DNA of 64,000 nt from the NCBI RefSeq assembly GCF_040267685.1, contig NZ_CP158367.1, positions 1,178,001 through 1,242,000 on the forward strand, in the 5' to 3' direction. The notes beneath the pieces were generated by a model, which was not told the origin of the DNA, ran no database searches, and worked only from the letters and a program-made list of their open reading frames with translations. Below are positions 7,172 through 59,070 of the stretch, in pieces; position 1 is the stretch's first letter; each line of letters opens with the position of its first letter. A program made the position numbers and the translations under genes. The stretch comes from Proteinivorax tanatarense. Lineage in GTDB: Bacteria > Bacillota > Proteinivoracia > Proteinivoracales > Proteinivoracaceae.

Positions 7172-8127
7172 TAGGTATAGATGTTGGTTCAGTATCAACC
7201 AACATAGTGGTGTTAGATGAAAAGCAGAACCTGTTAGCTAAAGAATATATAAGAACACAAGGAAAGCCTATTCAAGCAGTTAAAAAAGGCTTTGAAGCAG
7301 TAGAAAAATATATAAAAAATAATCCTGTTCTTTCGGTTGGCACCACTGGAAGTGGAAGAAAACTAGCTGCAGCTATGGTGGGAGCTGATGTTGTAAAAAA
7401 TGAGATAACAACCCATGCTGTAGGAGCTTTAAAGCATGATAAAGATGTTAAAACTGTAATTGAGATCGGAGGGCAGGATTCTAAAATAATTATACTCGAC
7501 GATTCTATAGTAACAGATTTTGCCATGAACAGTGTTTGCGCCGCAGGAACAGGATCATTTTTAGATCAGCAGGCGGCACGTTTAGGAATTTCAATTGAAG
7601 ATTTTGGGAAAATTGCATTAGAATCAACCACTGAACTAAGGATAGCAGGTCGATGTTCTGTATTTGCTGAATCTGATATGATTCATAAGCAGCAATTGGG
7701 AAATAGCATAGCTGATATATTGGCGGGCCTTTGTACTTCTTTAGTGAGAAATTATTTAAACAATTTAGGCAAGGGTAAAGAAATAAAATCTCCCATTATG
7801 TTTCAAGGAGGGGTAGCAGCTAACCCAGGAATTGTTTCTGCTTTTGAAAAAGAACTAGAACAAAAGATATTAATTCCCACTCACTATGATGTCATGGGGG
7901 CTTTTGGTTCAGCTCATTTAGCTAACATTCAGCGTCCTAGTAAATCTAAGTTTTTTGGGTTAGAAGCTATTGATGATGATTTTACACCATCGTCTTTTAA
8001 TTGTAGCGACTGTGGTAATAATTGTGAAGTTGTTAACCTAAAAAGAAATGGATTGATAGTAGGGAGTTGGGGTGATAAGTGTCAAAAATATCACCAGCCA
8101 ACAGAACAACAAAAAATAAGTAGTTAA
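7153..8127 (+). CDS. Acyl-CoA dehydratase activase-type ATPase (BadF/BadG/BcrA/HgdC family)
   Basis: 324 residues of the ASKHA ATPase fold. GIDVGSVSTNIVVLD is the phosphate-1 loop, IEIGGQDSKIIIL the phosphate-2 loop, and FQGGVAANPG the adenosine loop. NSVCAAGTGSFLDQQAARLG and AGRCSVFAESDMIHK carry the two cysteines that in HgdC bind a [4Fe-4S] cluster shared across a homodimer. A C-terminal tail adds CSDCGNNC and GDKC, a possible extra metal site not found in minimal HgdC. Such ATPases couple ATP hydrolysis to very low-potential one-electron transfer to a partner, here presumably the two DUF2229 proteins. Confidence 0.92.
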   Translation: MGNGVIIGIDVGSVSTNIVVLDEKQNLLAKEYIRTQGKPIQAVKKGFEAVEKYIKNNPVLSVGTTGSGRKLAAAMVGADVVKNEITTHAVGALKHDKDVKTVIEIGGQDSKIIILDDSIVTDFAMNSVCAAGTGSFLDQQAARLGISIEDFGKIALESTTELRIAGRCSVFAESDMIHKQQLGNSIADILAGLCTSLVRNYLNNLGKGKEIKSPIMFQGGVAANPGIVSAFEKELEQKILIPTHYDVMGAFGSAHLANIQRPSKSKFFGLEAIDDDFTPSSFNCSDCGNNCEVVNLKRNGLIVGSWGDKCQKYHQPTEQQKISS

Positions 8128-8168
8128 AAAAGTCTAGCAATGTAATAAAGCATTGCTAGACTTTTGGT
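8128..8168 (+). terminator. Terminator of the spoVAEa-activase unit
   Basis: A perfect 15-bp stem (AAAAGTCTAGCAATG / CATTGCTAGACTTTT) with an 8-base loop lies directly after the activase stop codon. It ends the spoVAEa/HgdB/HgdC-like transcription unit. Confidence 0.9.
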
Positions 8169-8317
8169 TTATCGCAAGTTAATTGGATGATTAATAAACA
8201 ATCGGCTGAGGAAAAATTCTTGCTGATTAAAGTTCGCTTATTAGAATGCTTTTAAGGCAACTGGCAATGTGTTATAATTTATATGCTAGATGTTACATAA
8301 ATTTGGAGGTAGTACAT

Positions 8318-10948
8318 GTGAATATAGTAACCACTCATGTAAATACAGACTTTGATGGACTTGCATCAATGATAGCATGCACAAAACTATATCCTAACAC
8401 GAAAATGGTATTGCCAGGGAAAGTTAAAAGAAATGTTAAAGAATATATCTCTTTACACAAAGATGTTCTTAAATTTGAAGCACCCTCTGATATAAATGAC
8501 AAAGAAATTGATAAATTAATAATTGTTGATACCGCCTCAGCTAAAAGAATAGGTTCTTTATCTAGACTTATACAAAAAGAAGTTGATATTATGGTGTATG
8601 ACCATCATCCTATATTAGAAGGGAAGAAGCCACAGTGGAGAGTTGAGGAGGTAGGTGCTACAGTTACTATACTAACAGAAGAGCTTATGGAAAAGGGTGT
8701 AGATATATCTTCTTTCGAAGCAACTTCCTTGATACTGGGCATTTATGAAGACACTGGAAATTTATCTTTTGCCCAAACAACTTCTAGGGATTTAAAGGCA
8801 GCAGCTTTTTTGCTGGAAAAAGGTGCTAAGCTATCTTTTATAAGTCAATTTATATCTAAGCCATTGACAGAGAACCAAAAAAGTTTATTAGAGACCTTAA
8901 TGGATAATATGGAGAACTTAGATTTTAATGGTTGGAATGTTGTGGTGTGCACAGCTTCATTAGATGAATTTATTGGAGGAGTTGGAGAGCTAACCCATAA
9001 ACTAGGTAAAATCGAGGATGTAGATGCAGTATTTACGTTAGTAAAAATGATAGACCGAATACATATAATAGGCAGGAGTTTTAACGAAAACTTACCTATT
9101 TCTAAACCTATTGTAGAAATGGGGGGAGGTGGCCATCCCCAATCTGCTGCAGCTACAGTTAAAGATAAGGACTTGGCAGCAATAAGGCAAGAATTTATAG
9201 CTTTGTTGAATAAGTTGCCGTCACCATTAACTGCAGCAGATGTAATGGCTCAACCTGTTAAAACTATTGGTCCTGATGTATCTATTTCAGAAGCAAGCCG
9301 TATCATGCTAAGATATGGTCATACAGGGTTGCCTGTAGTTGAGAATGATAATTTGTTAGGGATTATATCAAGAACAGATGTTGATAAAGCTATACATCAT
9401 GAGTTAACCCATGCACCAGTTAAAGGGTTTATGTCAACTAATGTAATAACTACTTCACCCAAAACTAGTCTCAAAACAGTAAGGCAGAAACTTACCCAAT
9501 ATGATATTGGAAGGTTACCGGTATTGGATGATAGCAAAAAGATGATTGGAATAATAACACGGACTGACGTTCTTAAAGTGATACATGGTAGCCAAGCCCC
9601 TAGGTGGCATAAACCGTTGTATACTTTTAGCGACTATAGCATGGCAGAGCCAAGTGAGAATTTAATGGAGGTTATAAATACGCGACTTCCTAAAAAGATT
9701 CAAGGACTGTTGTGGCTTATAGGTCAAAAAGCTCAAAAAGAGGGCTTTAAAGTTTATGCTGTTGGTGGATTTGTTAGAGATTTACTACTAGGAGTGCCTA
9801 ACCATGACATAGATATTGTGGTGGAACAAGATGCAATTTCTTTTGCCAGAAAAATAGTTAAATACTTAGGTGGGCAAATAAAAGAGTATCAAAAGTTTGG
9901 AACTGCAACAATAACCTTAAAAGATGGAATGAAAATCGACTTTGCTACAGCTAGGATGGAGTTTTATCCCTTTCCGGCAGCAATGCCTGAAGTGGAAGAA
10001 ACAACAATAAAACACGACCTGTATCGAAGAGATTTTACCATTAATACTTTAGCTTTTAGGTTAAATTCTGATAAATTTGGGGATTTTTTAGACTTTTTTG
10101 AAGGAAGTAAAGATTTAGAGCAAGGTAGCATAAAAGTATTATATAATCTAAGTTTTGTGGAGGATCCCACTAGAATTTTTAGAGCTTTTAGGTTTGAAAG
10201 TAGATATTCATTTCACATGGATGATTCTACCATGGGATTTTTGCTTAATGCTTTAGAAAATAATGTTATGCAAAAATTAAGCGGGACTAGAATTTTTGAA
10301 GAATTTCAAGCTATTGTTTTGGAACCTAATCCATCGGTTATTTTAATCAGAGCATTGGAATTAGGAGTTTTAGATAATATTTTCGGTAAATGTAGTAACC
10401 CGCAACAACTAAAGCAAAATTTTAAACATACAATGGATTCAATTGTATGTTTAAAAGAAAAAGGGATTTTAGAAAAAAAAGATTTCATTTTGGTTTATTT
10501 ATTAGTGATAATTAATAGCTATCCTAAAAAGGTTTTTGAAATTATCCTTAAGGACTTTAATTTAGATAAAGGTAGTAGGATAATTATTAGGAACTTCTTT
10601 GATGTAGGATTAGAGAGGATAGAAAAATTAAAATCTAATAAACACCTGGATCCTTCTGAAATTTATGATTCATTAAATGGCCTGAGTGTTCATTCTCTTT
10701 GTGCCATGATGGCCATAGCAGACAATGATTTGCTAAAAAATCGAATATTTTTGTATTTAGAAGAGTTACATAAGGTAGATGTTGAAATTACAGGTAATGA
10801 CTTAAAAGAAATGGGTATAAAACCTGGTCCAGTTTATAGTAAAATTATATCTAGGCTTAGACAACAAAAGTTAAATGGTGAAATACACACAAAAGATGAT
10901 GAATTGAACTATATAAAAAGCTTGGACCTAAAAGAAAGGGGTAGATAA
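8318..10948 (+). CDS. DHH-CBS-CBS-tRNA nucleotidyltransferase fusion
   Basis: 876 residues from GTG 8318, which has GGAGGT seven bases upstream; the 24 upstream codons lack such a site. Residues 1-300: DHH phosphoesterase with HVNTDFDG, IVDTAS, VYDHHP and a DHHA1-like GGGGHPQSAAATV. Residues ~305-430: two CBS domains (DVMAQPVKT, GLPVVENDNLLGIISRTDV, RLPVLDDSKKMIGIITRTDV). Residues ~490 onward: poly(A) polymerase/CCA head with AVGGFVRDLLLG, NHDIDIVVEQ, RRDFTINTLAF and EDPTRIFRAFRF. It repairs or builds tRNA 3' ends. Proteins of this layout include CC-adding enzymes that need a separate A-adding partner; which activity this one has cannot be read here. Confidence 0.93.
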   Translation: MNIVTTHVNTDFDGLASMIACTKLYPNTKMVLPGKVKRNVKEYISLHKDVLKFEAPSDINDKEIDKLIIVDTASAKRIGSLSRLIQKEVDIMVYDHHPILEGKKPQWRVEEVGATVTILTEELMEKGVDISSFEATSLILGIYEDTGNLSFAQTTSRDLKAAAFLLEKGAKLSFISQFISKPLTENQKSLLETLMDNMENLDFNGWNVVVCTASLDEFIGGVGELTHKLGKIEDVDAVFTLVKMIDRIHIIGRSFNENLPISKPIVEMGGGGHPQSAAATVKDKDLAAIRQEFIALLNKLPSPLTAADVMAQPVKTIGPDVSISEASRIMLRYGHTGLPVVENDNLLGIISRTDVDKAIHHELTHAPVKGFMSTNVITTSPKTSLKTVRQKLTQYDIGRLPVLDDSKKMIGIITRTDVLKVIHGSQAPRWHKPLYTFSDYSMAEPSENLMEVINTRLPKKIQGLLWLIGQKAQKEGFKVYAVGGFVRDLLLGVPNHDIDIVVEQDAISFARKIVKYLGGQIKEYQKFGTATITLKDGMKIDFATARMEFYPFPAAMPEVEETTIKHDLYRRDFTINTLAFRLNSDKFGDFLDFFEGSKDLEQGSIKVLYNLSFVEDPTRIFRAFRFESRYSFHMDDSTMGFLLNALENNVMQKLSGTRIFEEFQAIVLEPNPSVILIRALELGVLDNIFGKCSNPQQLKQNFKHTMDSIVCLKEKGILEKKDFILVYLLVIINSYPKKVFEIILKDFNLDKGSRIIIRNFFDVGLERIEKLKSNKHLDPSEIYDSLNGLSVHSLCAMMAIADNDLLKNRIFLYLEELHKVDVEITGNDLKEMGIKPGPVYSKIISRLRQQKLNGEIHTKDDELNYIKSLDLKERGR

Positions 10949-14904: not shown

Positions 14905-15080
14905 GATGCGAATTCGAGGCTGCGATGTGCCAAGAGTACTTTATAAGGAAAGGGGTCGTCGCCGAAATACATTTATGTATTGGGGTTATGTTTTAATAGG
15001 CATAGCACTGTCGCCAGAAGGTTGCCCAACTTTTTGGTGGAGAACTTTTCGCGTTGTGGGCAAAAGGCGCTGCTTAATAG
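14905..15080 (+). promoter_or_regulatory. Lysine riboswitch (L box)
   Basis: The leader contains the ordered L-box core segments: CGAGGCTGCGATG, CAAGAGTACTTTATAAGGAA, GGGGTCGTCGCCGAA and GCACTGTCGCC. An intrinsic terminator and then lysA follow. The element senses lysine and promotes early termination when lysine is plentiful. A reading frame of 81 codons crosses this region (14906-15151) but is a by-product of the structured RNA. All nine genes downstream are plausibly under its control, as no terminator is seen until 24255. Confidence 0.94.
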
Positions 15081-28336: not shown

Positions 28337-28993
28337 GTGGAGAAAAAAGAAAAACAAATTTCACGTAAAGATTTTATTAAGGGAGTAGGCACTTCATTAG
28401 CTGGAGTTACTGTTCTTGGCGGAATGGGGCTAATGGCTGGATGTTCTGAAGGAGCTGATTCTTCTGCAACAGATAAATCAACTCCTGATTGGCCATTTCC
28501 ATACGTAACTCTTGATCCAGATAAAGTGGCTGACAGAACTTATAAAGCTTATAAAGAAATGGGTGGCTGAGGTGTTGGTGTAGCCGAAGGGTTCTTCGGC
28601 ATGTTAGCTGACGAAGTGGGTTATCCATTTAATCAGATACCGGCAATGGCTTTTGTTAATGCTGGTGCCGGTTATGCTGGTCAGTACAGTTTATGTGGTT
28701 CCCTTGGTGTAGCAGCTGCCTGTATTGGGACTGTTTGTGAAGCAGATACTCAAAGAAAGCTAGTAAATGAGCTTTGGGATTGGTATAAGGAGCACCCCTT
28801 CCCTCAATATCAACCAGCAGAAATGGACTTAGAAAATACCGTAGCAGAATCTGTACTTTGTAGTGATTCTGTAGGTAAATTTATGCAAGCGCAAGGTATA
28901 ACATTTGGAGATCCAGAGCGTGGAGAGCGTTGTGCTGGTGTTGCGGCAGAAATTGCTAAAAAGACAGTTGAACTGTTAAATGAAACGTTATAA
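28337..28993 (+). CDS. Tat-exported C_GCAxxG_C_C-type redox lipoprotein with selenocysteine
   Basis: 218 residues from GTG 28337 (AAGGAGG upstream) if the in-frame TGA at 28568-28570 is read as selenocysteine (residue 78). The start ISRKDFIKGVG resembles a twin-arginine signal (RK variant), and VLGGMGLMAGC ends in a lipobox with Cys36. The mature part has DWPFPYVTLDPDKVADRTYK, then GG-U-GVGVAEGFFGML where relatives have Cys, then SLCGSLGVAAACIG, VLCSDS and ERCAGVAAEIA. Homology continues unbroken across the UGA. The domain is a putative redox protein of unknown substrate. Selenocysteine is inferred from UGA position plus the hairpin; biosynthesis genes lie outside the window. Confidence 0.9.
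28568..28600 (+). promoter_or_regulatory. Selenocysteine UGA and bacterial SECIS-like hairpin
   Basis: TGA at 28568-28570 is followed by a perfect 7-bp stem GCCGAAG / CTTCGGC (28583-28589 and 28594-28600) with a GGTT loop. The loop starts 20 bases after the UGA, within the spacing known for bacterial SECIS elements, and has the expected G and U. SelB recognition is inferred. Confidence 0.85.
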
Positions 28994-29290: not shown

Positions 29291-31114
29291 ATGGCTAATA
29301 AAATTATAACAAAGCCAAAAGAGATAAGTGAGAATCCAAAGGTGTTGTATACTGGTAATCATTATATTGCTATACCCATTATAGACTGTAAAAGTGGAGG
29401 GGTAAAGAGTATAAATCTCTTATCAAGCACAAATAAAGCTCTAGTTGAAGTGGAAGGTAGAAAGGATTTATTTTATCCTAAATTTTATAAAGGGGATAAA
29501 GGTCTGAAAATTGAAAAAATAGAAGGAGAAAAAGAACTTTTTTATTCGCCTAGACTCATATTTCACTTGGAATTTAATATTAAGGTAGTGCTTAAACTTT
29601 ATGCTGATTTATGCGAGAAAGGCTTTGTGTTTCAATTTGAAAGTAATGAAAATATAGAAGTAGTACTTGAATTTAACGTAAGCCAATTAAATCTTTTACG
29701 ATTCAACTCTCATCCGGTAAAAACAGATATCGAGTTTATGAAAGACAAATGGCTTTCAAACCCTGTAGTTAATTTGTCAAGTGAAAAAATTTCCTTAGCT
29801 ATGGGTTTTGGTGGAGAAAAGGATTTTACATATAAGTATGACAAAGTTTTAAAGCTTGCAGAATTAAAAGTTAAGTGTAACAGAAAAAATGCCATCTATG
29901 TTACAGTAAATAGTGATCCTGATGGTGCATCTACTACTTTAATTCACTTAAAGAGAAAGGGTTATCATAATATATATAACCAGTTAATAAGTTGGTTAAA
30001 AGAAAAAATTATTAGTTATTCACCAGATAAACAGTTAGAAAAAGTAATGAATGAAAATTTATTTTTTAATTATTTTTATGCAATAGGCAAAGATATGGAT
30101 ACAGACCAATACATCGCATTAACATCAAGAAGTCCTAGGTATTATGTGTCTGGTGCTTTTTGGGAAAGAGATAGCTTTCTGTGGTCTTTTCCAGCTATTA
30201 AACTAATTGATTATGAACTTCATAGGGAACTTTCACGAGAGATGATTATAATGCATAGTAAAAATCCCGGAGATCATGCTCACTATATTGATGGTACCGT
30301 GCTATATCCTGGATTTGAATTAGATGAGGCAGCCAGTTATTTTATTTTACTAGGGGAACTAGAGTACAACTATATAGATGATGAAATCATGAGAGCATTT
30401 TTAAAGGTATGGAATTCCATCGAAAAAAGGTATGATGAAGAAACAAGACTTTATAGCACGTTTTTACTTCCATCAGATGATCCTGCAGAATACCCTTTTG
30501 TAACTATAAACAATGTGATTTTACATCGGGGATTGCTTAATTATAAAAAACTATTAGAATTTAAAGGTGAGTATGAAAAAGGGGAATTCATCTCTAGAAG
30601 AATTGAAGGTATTGAGTTAGGAATAAAAAGACACTTATTAAAAAAAGTAAAAGGAAAGAAAATGTTTCTATGGTCAGCAGACGGAAAGGGGAATTTTCGA
30701 CTTTATAATGACCCGCCTGGAAATCTAGGTTTATTATGTTACTATAACTACGTTGATAAAGATGATAAAGCTTTTGTTAATACAATTAACTATTATTATT
30801 CGACAAAATATAAATATTTTTTTGAGGATGCTAAAATACAGGAGCTGGCATGTGATCATCATCCTAATACTCCGTCAGGACTTGGGTTATGCGGAAGCAT
30901 TTTAAATCCTATAAAAAGAAAAGAGGCGCTCCGGTGGCTAAAACATGCAAGAATGGACAACGGTCTGCTATCAGAAAGCTATGATAAAAATACTGGTGAA
31001 GGTAAAACAGGTGTCGGATTTGCAACTGGTTCAGGATATTTAGCCTTTGCACTTTACTATGCACTAATTAAGGAGGGGTTGAGTGAAAGTAGCAGCAGTT
31101 CACTGGACCAGTGA
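29291..31114 (+). CDS. Probable six-hairpin glycosidase-fold protein
   Basis: 607 residues without signal peptide, so cytosolic. The first ~230 residues look like a beta-rich domain. From about residue 270 an (alpha/alpha)6 barrel is suggested by FWERDSFLWSFPAIKLID, YPGFELDEAASYFILLGELE, TFLLPSDDPAEYPFVTIN, ELACDHHPNTPSGLGLCGS and HARMDNGLLSESYDKNTGEG. The W-E-R-D-S motif resembles six-hairpin glycosidases such as alpha-mannosidase or glucoamylase relatives. The exact family and substrate are not recognised. It overlaps the next gene by 32 bases, so it is one operon with two nitrilase-superfamily genes. Confidence 0.7.
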   Translation: MANKIITKPKEISENPKVLYTGNHYIAIPIIDCKSGGVKSINLLSSTNKALVEVEGRKDLFYPKFYKGDKGLKIEKIEGEKELFYSPRLIFHLEFNIKVVLKLYADLCEKGFVFQFESNENIEVVLEFNVSQLNLLRFNSHPVKTDIEFMKDKWLSNPVVNLSSEKISLAMGFGGEKDFTYKYDKVLKLAELKVKCNRKNAIYVTVNSDPDGASTTLIHLKRKGYHNIYNQLISWLKEKIISYSPDKQLEKVMNENLFFNYFYAIGKDMDTDQYIALTSRSPRYYVSGAFWERDSFLWSFPAIKLIDYELHRELSREMIIMHSKNPGDHAHYIDGTVLYPGFELDEAASYFILLGELEYNYIDDEIMRAFLKVWNSIEKRYDEETRLYSTFLLPSDDPAEYPFVTINNVILHRGLLNYKKLLEFKGEYEKGEFISRRIEGIELGIKRHLLKKVKGKKMFLWSADGKGNFRLYNDPPGNLGLLCYYNYVDKDDKAFVNTINYYYSTKYKYFFEDAKIQELACDHHPNTPSGLGLCGSILNPIKRKEALRWLKHARMDNGLLSESYDKNTGEGKTGVGFATGSGYLAFALYYALIKEGLSESSSSSLDQ

Positions 31115-31904
31115 TGTGTATAAAAAAATAACTGATGAACGAAGCCTATTTACTGCTATGGAAAAGGAGCTTAATAAAGCGCAGCAGCAAAAAGTGCAAC
31201 TTATTGTTTTCCCTGGCTTTTTAGGGTGTTTATATGCACAAATAACAATGGAAAAATTTAGTGAATACTTAGATATGGTATATAAGTTTTCTAAAGAGTT
31301 CAAAGTTGCTATATGTCCGGGTTCTTATTGGGAGAAAACTAATAATGAATGTTATCACTCTACCTCTATAATAAAAAATGGCAAATTGATTGTGAACCAA
31401 AGACAGATATATCTAGCTAAATGGGAACAAAGGATAGGTCTAAGCAGAGGAATAAAACTTAACACTTGTCAACTGGGGAAGTTTAATATAGGAATTATGA
31501 TATCCACTGATAACTTTTATCCTCAAGTTGGTAGGGCGTTGGCTAAAATGGGATGTGATTTAGTATTATCGCCTATAGGTTTAGTTGGAAATTATAATGA
31601 AGCATTACAAATAAGTGGGGTTCATCAAAAAGTACAACAAAATTTATTTTTTGCAATAGAATGTGGGTTTAATGGAAATGTTAAGGGAAATAGTTTTTGG
31701 TCTAGTTCTAGTATACATGCACCTCTTTTGATGACTGCTGAAGAAAGGGGATATTTGTGTAAATCAAATAGCACCCCCCAGCTATTGACGGCAGAGTTAG
31801 TACATAAAGATAGGTTAAAAGCGATTTCTAATTTCAATGTTTTGAATCATTTAAACACTGAATTTTATTGTAAAATGAAAATGTTTAACGGAGGTATAAA
31901 ATGA
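31083..31904 (+). CDS. Nitrilase-superfamily pseudoenzyme
   Basis: 273 residues from GTG 31083, with AGGAGGGG upstream. The carbon-nitrogen hydrolase fold is clear: KVQLIVFPGFLG, INQ-type KNGKLIVNQRQIYLAKWEQR, and FNIGIMISTDNFYPQVGRAL then DLVLSPIG. All three catalytic residues are replaced: Glu of FPE is Gly (VFPGF), Lys of the RKxHL loop is Gln (RQIYL), and the nucleophile Cys is Ser (MISTD). It is probably inactive and may pair with the next protein or bind a ligand. It overlaps both neighbours. Confidence 0.85.
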   Translation: MKVAAVHWTSDVYKKITDERSLFTAMEKELNKAQQQKVQLIVFPGFLGCLYAQITMEKFSEYLDMVYKFSKEFKVAICPGSYWEKTNNECYHSTSIIKNGKLIVNQRQIYLAKWEQRIGLSRGIKLNTCQLGKFNIGIMISTDNFYPQVGRALAKMGCDLVLSPIGLVGNYNEALQISGVHQKVQQNLFFAIECGFNGNVKGNSFWSSSSIHAPLLMTAEERGYLCKSNSTPQLLTAELVHKDRLKAISNFNVLNHLNTEFYCKMKMFNGGIK

Positions 31905-32962
31905 CAAGTGCAAGAGTTCTCAGATACCTACTTGAAAAAAAACTTAATACAAACCTAATAGATCAATATTATGATAAATTACCTGCCTTAGACGAAATTA
32001 GAATTTCAGACCAAACCAACCTAAAGGTATCCTGTATACAAAGGGAAGTTATTCTTGTAAAAGATATTAAGGATTATTTGGATATGGCTAATTCGTTTGT
32101 GAAAATAGCGGTAAAAGAAGGTAGCGATCTGGTTGTGTTTCCTGAATATAATTTTTTTGATTTATTTGGTTTAATTCCTGGAACTAAAAAGATCAATAAT
32201 TACATAAATAAAAAAAATACTTCTTCTGATTTAACTGATAAAAATGGGACTGCAGAGTTTAAAGGACGTAATTATTTAAAAAACATTTTAGCTGTTACAG
32301 CAAAACCTATAAGTAAAGCTATTAGGAAAATTTACTCTCAACTTGCAAATCACTATGGTATTTATATTTATACAGGTACATTTATAGAGAATAGAGGGGG
32401 GGTTTTATACAACACAGGATCCCTATTTGATAACAAAGGAAACCTTATAGGAAATCAAGATAAAATACACCTAACAGAGTTTGAAGAACAAATAGGTATA
32501 ACAAGAGCCAATCAGCTTAATATTCATAATTTGCCATGGGGCAAATTAGCTTTCCCTATATGTATGGATGCTACATATTATGAAACTTTTCAAATTGCCA
32601 AAGAATATGAGGCAGACTTTGTTATTGTACCCATAGCTAATATGGAAGAGTATAGTATGTGGAGAGCGTTAAGAGGGGTTTGGCCTAGGGTACAAGAAAG
32701 TTATGTTTACGGACTTAAGTCTTCTTTAAACGGATGGATTTTCGGGGTTCACTTTACAGGGAAAGCTGGTATTTTTGCTCCCCTATCAATAACGGCTAAA
32801 AAGGATGGTGTGATCGCACTTGCTCCCAATTATGAAGGGAATTATGTAGTGACATCGGAACTTGTACTATCAAATTTATATGAGGCTAGGGAAAATGACG
32901 AGTATTTTGGTGACAAAAACCATTGTTTTGAGAAGGAATATATTAAAAATACTTACCTTTGA
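31901..32962 (+). CDS. Carbon-nitrogen hydrolase (nitrilase superfamily), intact triad
   Basis: 353 residues. The catalytic Glu is in DLVVFPEYNFFDLFG, Lys in GNQDKIHLTEFEEQIG and Cys in FPICMDATYYETFQIA. About 40 residues precede the fold (VLRYLLEKKLNTNLIDQYYD), and an insert of ~60 residues follows the Glu motif. These enzymes hydrolyse nitriles, amides or N-acyl bonds; the substrate here is unknown. ATG 31901 follows GGAGG and overlaps the pseudoenzyme gene by 4 bases. Pairing with a glycosidase suggests processing of an amide-bearing sugar or sugar-peptide (speculative). Confidence 0.88.
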   Translation: MTSARVLRYLLEKKLNTNLIDQYYDKLPALDEIRISDQTNLKVSCIQREVILVKDIKDYLDMANSFVKIAVKEGSDLVVFPEYNFFDLFGLIPGTKKINNYINKKNTSSDLTDKNGTAEFKGRNYLKNILAVTAKPISKAIRKIYSQLANHYGIYIYTGTFIENRGGVLYNTGSLFDNKGNLIGNQDKIHLTEFEEQIGITRANQLNIHNLPWGKLAFPICMDATYYETFQIAKEYEADFVIVPIANMEEYSMWRALRGVWPRVQESYVYGLKSSLNGWIFGVHFTGKAGIFAPLSITAKKDGVIALAPNYEGNYVVTSELVLSNLYEARENDEYFGDKNHCFEKEYIKNTYL

Positions 32963-33032
32963 AAAATATAACAGGCAATATTTTGGGAAACATTCTAACT
33001 ATAATAAAAGAAGATGCAAATAGTCAAAAATG

Positions 33033-33072
33033 ACGTCGATTATCTTATTGTAATTGACGTTTTTTTTTTTTT
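33033..33072 (+). terminator. Terminator after the nitrilase genes
   Basis: ACGTCGATTA pairs with TAATTGACGT (one G-U pair) and is followed by about 13 T. Confidence 0.88.
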
Positions 33073-33165
33073 GACAAAATAAAAGCAGTAAAATTATTAA
33101 CAGCTTTCATATATTGCTATTCTTTTTAATATATTTGATAAAAAAGCAAGAGAGAAGGGAGTAGT

Positions 33166-34338
33166 ATGAAAAAAGCAACAATTTTTTTATTGATTTTTAT
33201 AATAGCAATACCGAATGGAGTAATCTATGGTGAAGATGACTTAGATATCTTTGATTTTGATGCAAAGAGTTACATATTGATTAACCAAAGTACTAACCAA
33301 GTACTAGCTAGTAGAAACTGTAGTGAAGAACTGCTAATGGCTAGCACCACAAAGGTAATGACTGCTATAGTTGCTTTAGAGTTAATCGAAGATATAAATG
33401 GTTATTATAAAGTTCCAGATGAAGCTAGTGGAGTTATTGGTAGTTCTATTTATCTTGAAGAAGGAGAAATAATACCAATTAAGGATTTATTGTATGGGTT
33501 AATGATAAGGTCGGGGAATGACTCAGCAGTTGCATTAGCGATAGCTACTGCTGGCAGTGAAAAACATTTTGTTAAATTAATGAATGAAAAAGCAGAAGAG
33601 ATAGGAGCATTCGATACATCATTTGCCAATCCTCATGGGTTAAATGCAAAAAATCACTACACAACGGCTCATGACTTAGCATTGATAACTGCCTATGCAA
33701 TGGATAATCCTTTTTTTAGGGAGATTGCATCAACTACATTTTACCGTAGCACCACATTGGAAGGTAAGGTAAGAGCATTTCATTCCAATAATCGTTTTTT
33801 ACTAAACTATGATAAGGCAACTGCTGCTAAAACTGGTTGGACAACTGAAGCAGGCAGATGTCTTACAGGGGCATCTAGTGAGGGAGCCCATGATTTGGTT
33901 GGTGTGCTTCTTTATGCTCCTAATTGGTTCAATGATTTAGAGACAATGATGAACTGGGCCTACGCAGAATATAAAGGGGTACAAGTAATAGAAGAAGGGG
34001 TATCCTTAGGATTAGTTGAGGTTAAAAAAGGGGTTGAGCCTTTTGTTGCAGCCAGAGCATCTAAAGATATAGTGGTATCTGCCTCCAAAAACACAGAGCC
34101 GGTAATAACAAGTGATGTTGAGTTAAATGACAAAGTTACTGCTCCTGTTTATAAAGGGGATAAAATTGGAGAAAAACATATTTATAAAGATGGAGAGTAT
34201 ATATGCACTTTAGACTTGGTAGCTCATAAAGAAATTGCTAAAGAGTCCAAGCCGTGGTATAGAAGGTTTTTTGCTTGGCGGGGTGAGACTTTAAGGGGGA
34301 TTTATCAGTGGTTAATAAAATATGGTTTTTCTTTATAG
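33166..34338 (+). CDS. dacB: D-alanyl-D-alanine carboxypeptidase, sporulation type (DacB)
   Basis: 390 residues with an N-terminal signal peptide (ATIFLLIFIIAIPNGVIYG). The penicillin-binding motifs are S60TTK (LLMASTTKVMTAIVA), SGN (MIRSGNDSAVALA) and KTG (TAAKTGWTTEAGR). A C-terminal beta domain and an amphipathic end follow. It trims pentapeptide side chains in spore cortex peptidoglycan. The identification as DacB rather than DacF rests on the two downstream genes spmA and spmB, the known dacB-spmA-spmB order. It overlaps spmA by 31 bases. Confidence 0.92.
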   Translation: MKKATIFLLIFIIAIPNGVIYGEDDLDIFDFDAKSYILINQSTNQVLASRNCSEELLMASTTKVMTAIVALELIEDINGYYKVPDEASGVIGSSIYLEEGEIIPIKDLLYGLMIRSGNDSAVALAIATAGSEKHFVKLMNEKAEEIGAFDTSFANPHGLNAKNHYTTAHDLALITAYAMDNPFFREIASTTFYRSTTLEGKVRAFHSNNRFLLNYDKATAAKTGWTTEAGRCLTGASSEGAHDLVGVLLYAPNWFNDLETMMNWAYAEYKGVQVIEEGVSLGLVEVKKGVEPFVAARASKDIVVSASKNTEPVITSDVELNDKVTAPVYKGDKIGEKHIYKDGEYICTLDLVAHKEIAKESKPWYRRFFAWRGETLRGIYQWLIKYGFSL

Positions 34339-49916: not shown

Positions 49917-49930
49917 GTATATCTTATTAA

Positions 49931-50283
49931 GTTCGAGTAGATTTATAAGCCGAGTTCTGTACTTTCTTGTGAAAGTGATAGTCATCTATCTTGGATGTTA
50001 GTTGCCTAACACCTCCAGCGACCATACCCGAGGACGCAACGGGCAATTGCATATATCCTCCTACTTGGTCTTGCTCCTAGTGGGGTTTACCTAGCCAACT
50101 AGTCGCCTAGTTGCTGGTGCGCTCTTACCGCACCTTTCCACCCTTACCAGCATAGCTGGCGGTTTATTTCTGTGGCACTATCCTTGAGGTCACCCTCACT
50201 GGACGTTATCCAGCACTATGCCCTACGGAGCTCGGACTTTCCTCAGATACTAAAGTATCCGCAACTATCCCATCTACTCAAAC
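49931..50283 (-). ncRNA. rnpB: RNase P catalytic RNA
   Basis: About 353 bases on the minus strand. Read in that sense it contains GAGGAAAGTCCGAGCTC, GGGTGGAAAGGTGCGGTAAG and AGCGCACCAGCAAC, CGGGTATGGTCGCTGGAGGT, and ends with ACAGAACTCGGCTTATAAAT, the RNase P RNA core. Helix P1 pairs the 5' GTTTGAGTAGAT with the 3' ATCTACTCGAAC, which fixes the ends to within a few bases. It matures tRNA 5' ends. Confidence 0.95.
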
Positions 50284-58833: not shown

Positions 58834-58874
58834 TAAAAAAACCTTTCGTCTTTAAATAAAGAGACGAAAGGTTT
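58834..58874 (-). terminator. T-box-controlled terminator of leuS
   Basis: On the minus strand AACCTTTCGTCTC pairs with GACGAAAGGTT, closing an AT-rich loop and followed by seven T. The 5' arm overlaps the antiterminator. Confidence 0.92.
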
Positions 58875-59070
58875 GGTTCCGTGGTACCACTCTTGTTGAG
58901 CATAGCCTGTATGCTCCACTTAAATACAAATAACGGTGTTAGCCGTAGCAGGCTATCTATTTACCTGCTATCCTCAAAGGTGAGTTCAAAGCAAAGCCTA
59001 CCTTTTTACACCAACCAAAGGCTCTCTGTAAGGCTAAAAACTTTTACTACTCCTTGTCAAAGGAAATAAA
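58875..59070 (-). promoter_or_regulatory. T-box riboswitch of leuS, leucine CTC specifier
   Basis: On the minus strand the leader holds GGAGTAG near the 5' end, a specifier loop GAACTCACC with CTC at 58984-58982 (Leu), and the T-box GAGTGGTACCACGGAACC at about 58892-58875. Uncharged tRNA-Leu pairing would favour the antiterminator. The codon and the downstream gene agree, so the assignment is strong. Confidence 0.94.

Follow-up and report, generated by a model that had tools for sequence, protein, structure and literature searches.

A nitrilase-superfamily pair, one member without its catalytic residues, encoded with a GH125-like glycosidase in Proteinivorax tanatarense: probable subunits of one enzyme

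The 64,000-nucleotide stretch of Proteinivorax tanatarense DNA analysed here, hereafter the window, carries on its forward strand an operon of three overlapping genes, and this account is chiefly concerned with the second and third of them, both of which belong to the nitrilase superfamily. Gene 1 (29291-31114, 607 amino acids, ATG start) is predicted to encode a GH125-like (alpha/alpha)6 glycosidase with an N-terminal beta-sandwich domain. Gene 2 (31083-31904, 273 amino acids, GTG start) encodes a pseudo-nitrilase, a probable non-catalytic subunit, and gene 3 (31901-32962, 353 amino acids, ATG start) a CN_hydrolase protein with intact Glu-Lys-Glu-Cys. Genes 1 and 2 overlap by 32 bases and genes 2 and 3 by 4 bases, with a Shine-Dalgarno-like aaggagg 5' of the GTG at 31083 and ggagg 5' of the ATG at 31901. 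At the operon end there is a terminator-like hairpin followed by a T run (33032-33061, forward strand; -14.6 kcal/mol, z -3.85); a promoter scan carries no information, as it returned 22 sites with 20.8 expected. The genome, a single contig of 3.09 Mb, has three CN_hydrolase matches, namely gene 2, gene 3 and one further.

The product of gene 2 is a member of the Pfam family CN_hydrolase (PF00795), scoring 47.4 bits against a cut-off of 23.2. When it is aligned by phmmer to solved nitrilases, Gly45 (31215-31217) stands in place of the catalytic Glu, Gln108 (31404-31406) in place of the catalytic Lys and Ser141 (31503-31505) in place of the catalytic Cys, the three codons all being on the forward strand. 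By the tetrad spacing given in excerpts of PMC6214922 and PMC6637149, the fourth residue of the Cys-Glu-Glu-Lys (CEEK) tetrad, seven after the Lys, is kept as Glu115 (31425-31427, forward strand), which is Glu in 49 of 55 homologues. Among the same homologues Gln106 and Asp143 are found in 55 of 55 and Gln108 in 54 of 55. The AlphaFold2 model has a mean predicted local distance difference test score (pLDDT) of 93.9 and in a Foldseek search matches nitrilase-family structures, the best with an E-value of 1.7e-18 to 2w1v (template modelling score 0.74), so that the protein has the nitrilase fold; the model confidence and the structure matches both argue that it is not a decaying copy. Since the Glu-Lys-Cys triad is absent, gene 2 belongs to the nitrilase superfamily by fold and descent and not as a working enzyme. 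Its parts of lowest mean entropy are the helix 141-155 (1.22), which comes directly after the lost Cys position, the helix 173-187 (1.31) and the strand 190-195 (1.14), compared with 2.06 overall, and the conserved helices are what we take to be the dimer A-interface of the superfamily.

Gene 3 scores 59.6 bits against PF00795, for which the cut-off is again 23.2, and alignment identifies its catalytic Glu82 (32144-32146), Lys188 (32462-32464) and Cys221 (32561-32563), all on the forward strand; these three and Glu195 are invariant in 12 of 12 aligned sequences. It also has, with no counterpart in gene 2, an N-terminal extension of about 40 residues, with the consensus ALxxYLxxKxRPxxIRxYL, and a long insertion after Glu82, which may serve for docking of a partner or for covering the substrate. 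None of the named NCBIfam nitrilase equivalogs reaches its cut-off for either protein, the best scores being 50.7 and 43.5 bits versus 500 (NF040852). The Pyrococcus amidase/nitrilase (1j31, 3ivz, 6ypa) is one of the solved structures nearest to both in sequence. The gene 2 model matches 6ypa, the fold match being at 19-21% identity, but unlike gene 2 the Pyrococcus enzyme has an intact triad, and compared with it gene 3 adds the extension and the insertion. An earlier inspection of the letters by themselves, the sequence-only reading, had described the overlaps of 32 and 4 bases, a nitrilase fold in gene 2 with Glu to Gly, Lys to Gln and Cys to Ser changes, and retention of Glu, Lys and Cys in gene 3; the reading-frame coordinates and the alignments agree with it on each of these.

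Are the losses in gene 2 peculiar to this organism? A protein search in 60 relatives and the organism's own genome found the pair of genes 2 and 3 in several, and in a wider profile search, flanks included, 67 of 398 Bacillota genomes had both genes and 5 more were partial. A third set comprised 80 named loci sought with patterns that contain the Cys (P[IV]CMDATY), which biases its Cys count; that of the 398-genome set is unbiased, as its members were found by gene-2 sequence and profile. When near-identical sequences were removed the pooled set held 121 gene-2 and 128 gene-3 sequences. A complete triad occurs in 0 of the 121 gene-2 homologues, so orthologues keeping it were sought and not found among them, and the Lys is replaced by Gln in 116; the substitutions of the pseudoenzyme are thus conserved. 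Gene 3 has Glu, Lys and Cys in 124 of 128, the remainder being three gapped rows and one with Glu, Lys and Gly. The 74 gene-2 rows of the 398-genome set, three of which are outgroups or fragments, have at the Lys column Q 69, K 2, A 1 and gap 2; at the Glu column A 33, G 17, P 9, E 7, S 5, Q 2 and gap 1; and at the Cys column G 49, C 11, S 7, A 4, H 1, D 1 and gap 1. For gene 3 in that set, a count of 68 rows that leaves out four mis-binned gene-2 rows, E, K and C are each present in 67, the misses being gaps for E and K and a Gly for C. The sole Lys-bearing gene-2 row among the 121, L130_6916 (Pro, Lys, Cys at the three positions), lies outside both clades of the tree described below. It belongs to a second tandem type, seen at L130 6916-8848 and L134 7404-9363, where both nitrilase-like proteins lack triad residues (in L130 one has Ala, Gln and Gly, the other Pro, Lys and Cys). 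At L102-L104, L106 and L112, gene 2 has Glu at the catalytic position, with Lys and Cys gone (EQG).

The conserved linkage of the pair was also examined. Gene 2 lies immediately 5' of gene 3 on the same strand in 73 of the 80 named loci (72 with a stricter score threshold), and the other seven are at contig ends, where the gene 3 open reading frame starts less than 240 bases from the end; gene 1 is a frequent companion and not an obligatory one. Of 64 pairs measured, 46 have the two genes overlapping or separated by no more than 30 bases, and in 5 of 67 pairs of the 398-genome set and 1 of 72 of the named set they are fused, gene 2 first, in a single open reading frame. The hosts of the named loci are mainly Bacillota and Atribacterota, plus a single record from Actinomycetota, and gene 2 homologues are mostly 25-50% identical. 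In a tree of 71 gene-2, 55 gene-3 and 11 other CN_hydrolase sequences, with L130_6916 and L045 set aside, gene 2 forms a clade of 70 (support 0.999) and gene 3 a clade of 54 (0.875), joined as sisters (0.986), and therefore one old duplication yielded both. Over 35 loci the distances within gene 2 and within gene 3 are correlated (r = 0.75, equalled in 0 of 2000 permutations), a correlation that shared genome descent would also favour. At the same loci gene 2 evolves faster, with a mean tree distance of 2.99 versus 1.83 for gene 3.

Gene 1 scores 41 bits against the GH125 Pfam family PF06824 (cut-off 23.4), and two of its homologues score 60.1 and 74.4 bits. Its predicted structure has a pLDDT of 93.6, with the segment 601-607 below 50; the C-terminal residues, coded where gene 2 overlaps, are disordered in the model. 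In VIA-align, from whose list absences were given no weight as evidence, residues 235-595 fit the GH125 structure 6rqk_B best (Z 36.9, root mean square deviation 2.5, 349 aligned, 18% identity), and nearly the whole chain aligns to glucodextranase (Z 31.2) and a bacterial glucoamylase (Z 30.3), both also in the Foldseek list. The counterparts of residues 220 and 393 of Clostridium perfringens GH125, which we take to be the catalytic acid and the catalytic base, are Asp396 (30476-30478) and Glu562 (30974-30976), both on the forward strand; neither varies among the 37 aligned sequences. By profile, modelled (alpha/alpha)6 fold and conserved acid and base, gene 1 is thus assigned to GH125. It shares the catalytic-domain fold and both catalytic residues with the exo-alpha-1,6-mannosidases of that family (C. 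perfringens 2nvp, 3qt3, 5m7i, 6rqk) and differs from them in its 17-18% identity, in its operon with an amidase pair and in an additional N-terminal beta-sandwich domain, which resembles that of the bacterial glucoamylase 1lf6 and of the glucodextranase 1ug9. Because of the extra domain and the low identity, the likeness to GH125 does not settle specificity. No signal peptide was apparent by eye. The cytosolic six-hairpin glycosidase of the sequence-only reading is supported, and can be described more precisely as a GH125-like catalytic domain preceded by a beta-sandwich domain.

With what else does the pair travel? Gene 1 occurs in 59 of the 398 Bacillota genomes, and it accompanies the pair in 52; 20 have the pair only, 7 gene 1 only and 319 neither, the 72 pair genomes including the 5 partial ones (Fisher p ~1e-40, uncorrected for relatedness and from lists copied by hand). 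Within the fetched regions, some of which are short contigs and with some species in both sets, gene 1 is found at 39 of 67 pair loci of the 398-genome set and 43 of 72 of the named set, and an MFS_2 transporter at 21 of 67 and 42 of 72. This fourth partner, by Pfam a sugar symporter, is present in a sister species and many others and not in this window: in the sister species it follows gene 3 (L034 7211-8521), and it is absent at window 32962-33166. The nearest match to it in the P. tanatarense genome is 33% identical and lies beside genes resembling a lactate-racemase cluster (names by eye). The company of gene 1 and the symporter suggests a small imported glycoside as substrate. Neighbour clustering, in which some species were counted in both genome sets, gave no widespread family besides genes 1-3 and the transporter that could serve as a clue to the substrate; there are clade-local neighbours, namely a PIG-L deacetylase (c15, 9 loci), an amidohydrolase (c14, 9 loci) and GH94 (c17, 8 loci). 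In some of the group L102-L104, L106 and L112 a PIG-L deacetylase gene stands between gene 3 and gene 1, which, in the L112 clade, hints at an N-acetylated sugar there. Another clade has GH94 and sugar-ABC-like genes near the pair. The pathway for an amide-bearing glycan or osmolyte put forward in the sequence-only reading is still a guess. For a link to the synthesis of mannosylglycerate or mannosylglyceramide as osmolytes there is no support: mannosyl-3-phosphoglycerate synthase (PF09488) was above cut-off in 0 of the 398 Bacillota genomes and had no match in the organism's own, with a Thermus control positive, and a literature search combining mannosylglyceramide with nitrilase found nothing. 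An osmolyte that is imported may nevertheless be the substrate, being compatible with the absence of PF09488.

What, then, would a folded nitrilase without the chemistry be kept for? Strict adjacency, fusions and parallel phylogeny, together with that folded partner, make a hetero-complex likely. On balance we think it probable, from comparative sequence evidence, that the products of genes 2 and 3 are subunits of a single heteromeric enzyme of the nitrilase superfamily, which in many genomes would go with a pathway for an imported glycoside. The retained non-catalytic role proposed earlier for gene 2, there perhaps as a regulatory or binding partner, is the best explanation of its conservation and linkage; the complex itself is what we infer from them. 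PMC6214922 describes grass nitrilases active only as hetero-complexes and the dimerisation of nitrilases via a conserved A-interface, PMC5154151 a NIT4A/NIT4B2 complex, and PMC6637149 the capping of the AtNIT4 pocket by a loop of the neighbouring subunit. The Poaceae NIT4A/NIT4B is the closest precedent, being likewise two nitrilase-superfamily paralogues, which in the plants must combine to be active. Unlike them the present pair is bacterial, operon-encoded and far more diverged, and it adds a partner that is triad-less family-wide and a linked glycosidase and sugar symporter. Adjacency, fusion and parallel phylogeny would be compatible with an obligate hetero-nitrilase of this plant type. 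ADAT2/ADAT3, CLPP/CLPR and similar cases share the theme of a site-less paralogue retained in complex with an active one, with other folds and chemistry and in eukaryotes or plastids. The literature searched on nitrilase pseudoenzymes, inactive subunits, hetero-complexes and this cluster yielded no bacterial pseudo-nitrilase/nitrilase pair, only the plant hetero-complexes.

In such an enzyme the Cys-Glu-Lys(-Glu) site of gene 3 would act on an amide or nitrile, cleaving its C-N bond. Gene 2 would be an ancient paralogue that lost its chemistry, acquired a near-fixed Gln where the catalytic Lys had been and persisted as an obligate partner. Its most likely place is the dimer interface conserved among nitrilases; from there it may stabilise or shape the active site of gene 3 or add a binding surface. 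The MFS_2 protein, of the sugar:cation symporter type, would import a small glycoside, gene 1 would trim its terminal sugar and the pair would then attack what is left, which bears the nitrogen; alternatively, the pair may act first.

Several observations weigh against this interpretation. Conservation of the gene 2 helices is expected for any nitrilase fold and, since active nitrilases should conserve them too, is consistent with a complex without demanding one. The alignment of the natural fusion L212 put gene-2 and gene-3 rows on one half and was unused for pair modelling. In the genome G105 (L135) no gene 3 adjoins gene 2. The loss in gene 2 is not uniform, for Glu is kept in 5 and Cys in 10 of the 121 homologues, and at L122 the catalytic Cys of gene 3 (7486-8661) is Gly, so that both partners there would be inactive. 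As 20 of the 72 pair genomes are without a gene-1 match, the glycosidase is an optional companion, and for some genomes the pathway part of the interpretation may fail.

That last point bears on an alternative which partly coincides with the explanation preferred here, and to which we give perhaps a quarter of our belief: the amidase pair would be a heteromer, yet separate in function from the glycosidase and transporter, with an operon shared only in some lineages. Besides the 20 pair-only and 7 gene-1-only genomes, it is favoured by several lineages having gene 1 and the transporter on the strand opposite to the pair, and by other genomes where the pair adjoins housekeeping genes resembling ruvCAB or polA/mutM/coaE (names by eye). 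Set against it are the presence of gene 1 in 52 of the 72 pair genomes, the closeness of genes 1 and 2 where they share a strand (18 of the 19 such cases that were measured show an overlap or no more than 5 bases between them), and L124, in which gene 3 and gene 1 form a single open reading frame. It is rather unlikely that gene 2 is an enzyme of changed chemistry, with a pocket of Gln108, Glu115 and Asp143 acting on what gene 1 or gene 3 produces. The strictness of these polar residues and of Gln106 in the lost site, given above, speaks for it, but the nucleophile position varies among G, S, C, A, D, P, H and T and the Glu position among A, G, P, S, Q and E, so no new residue has been fixed where the chemistry took place, and Asp143, two after the Cys position, is probably structural because its gene 3 equivalent, Asp223, is invariant too. 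A role as a ligand sensor or regulator in the operon, and not as a subunit with gene 3, is improbable: a folded protein with a conserved pocket and no catalytic residues would suit it, as would the gene 2 of G105, but the fixed gene order, the single-frame fusions and the parallel phylogenies do not, and Pfam finds no DNA-binding or signalling domain. The idea that gene 2 arose recently by duplication and is decaying with no role to play, as its faster evolution might have hinted, is rejected on its conservation and phylogeny, with a single old origin, invariant residues at such low identity, intact reading frames and strict adjacency across Bacillota, Atribacterota and the one Actinomycetota record.

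Elsewhere in the window, a gene on the forward strand (28337-28993) of the C_GCAxxG_C_C family (PF09719) is likely to encode a selenoprotein, its frame being broken by a TGA at 28569-28571. That TGA is in frame in the same-genus L034 also, a hairpin (-19.8 kcal/mol, z -2.9) follows the gene, and a tRNA-Sec (76.5 bits) is encoded in the genome. Rfam identifies a lysine riboswitch (14906-15055, forward strand), a class A RNase P RNA (49930-50280, reverse strand) and a T-box leader (58857-59069, reverse strand).

To return to genes 2 and 3 as subunits of one enzyme, the widest form of the proposal is tentative, and we would wager somewhat against it: a family-wide, obligate bacterial hetero-nitrilase which would have its own dedicated non-catalytic subunit, fixed by one ancient duplication, and which with a GH125-like glycosidase and an MFS_2 transporter would degrade an undescribed amide or nitrile glycoside in anaerobic Bacillota and Atribacterota. 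The module is open to testing because cultured hosts, namely Caldanaerobacter subterraneus, Thermoanaerobacter wiegelii, Caloramator quimbayensis and Lutispora saccharofermentans, carry all four genes. If the pair is a complex, it would be a natural system for learning how the active site of a nitrilase is governed by a subunit that is itself dead, and, if the proposal is true, the module with glycosidase and transporter would point to a nitrogen-bearing glycoside used by many uncultured anaerobes.

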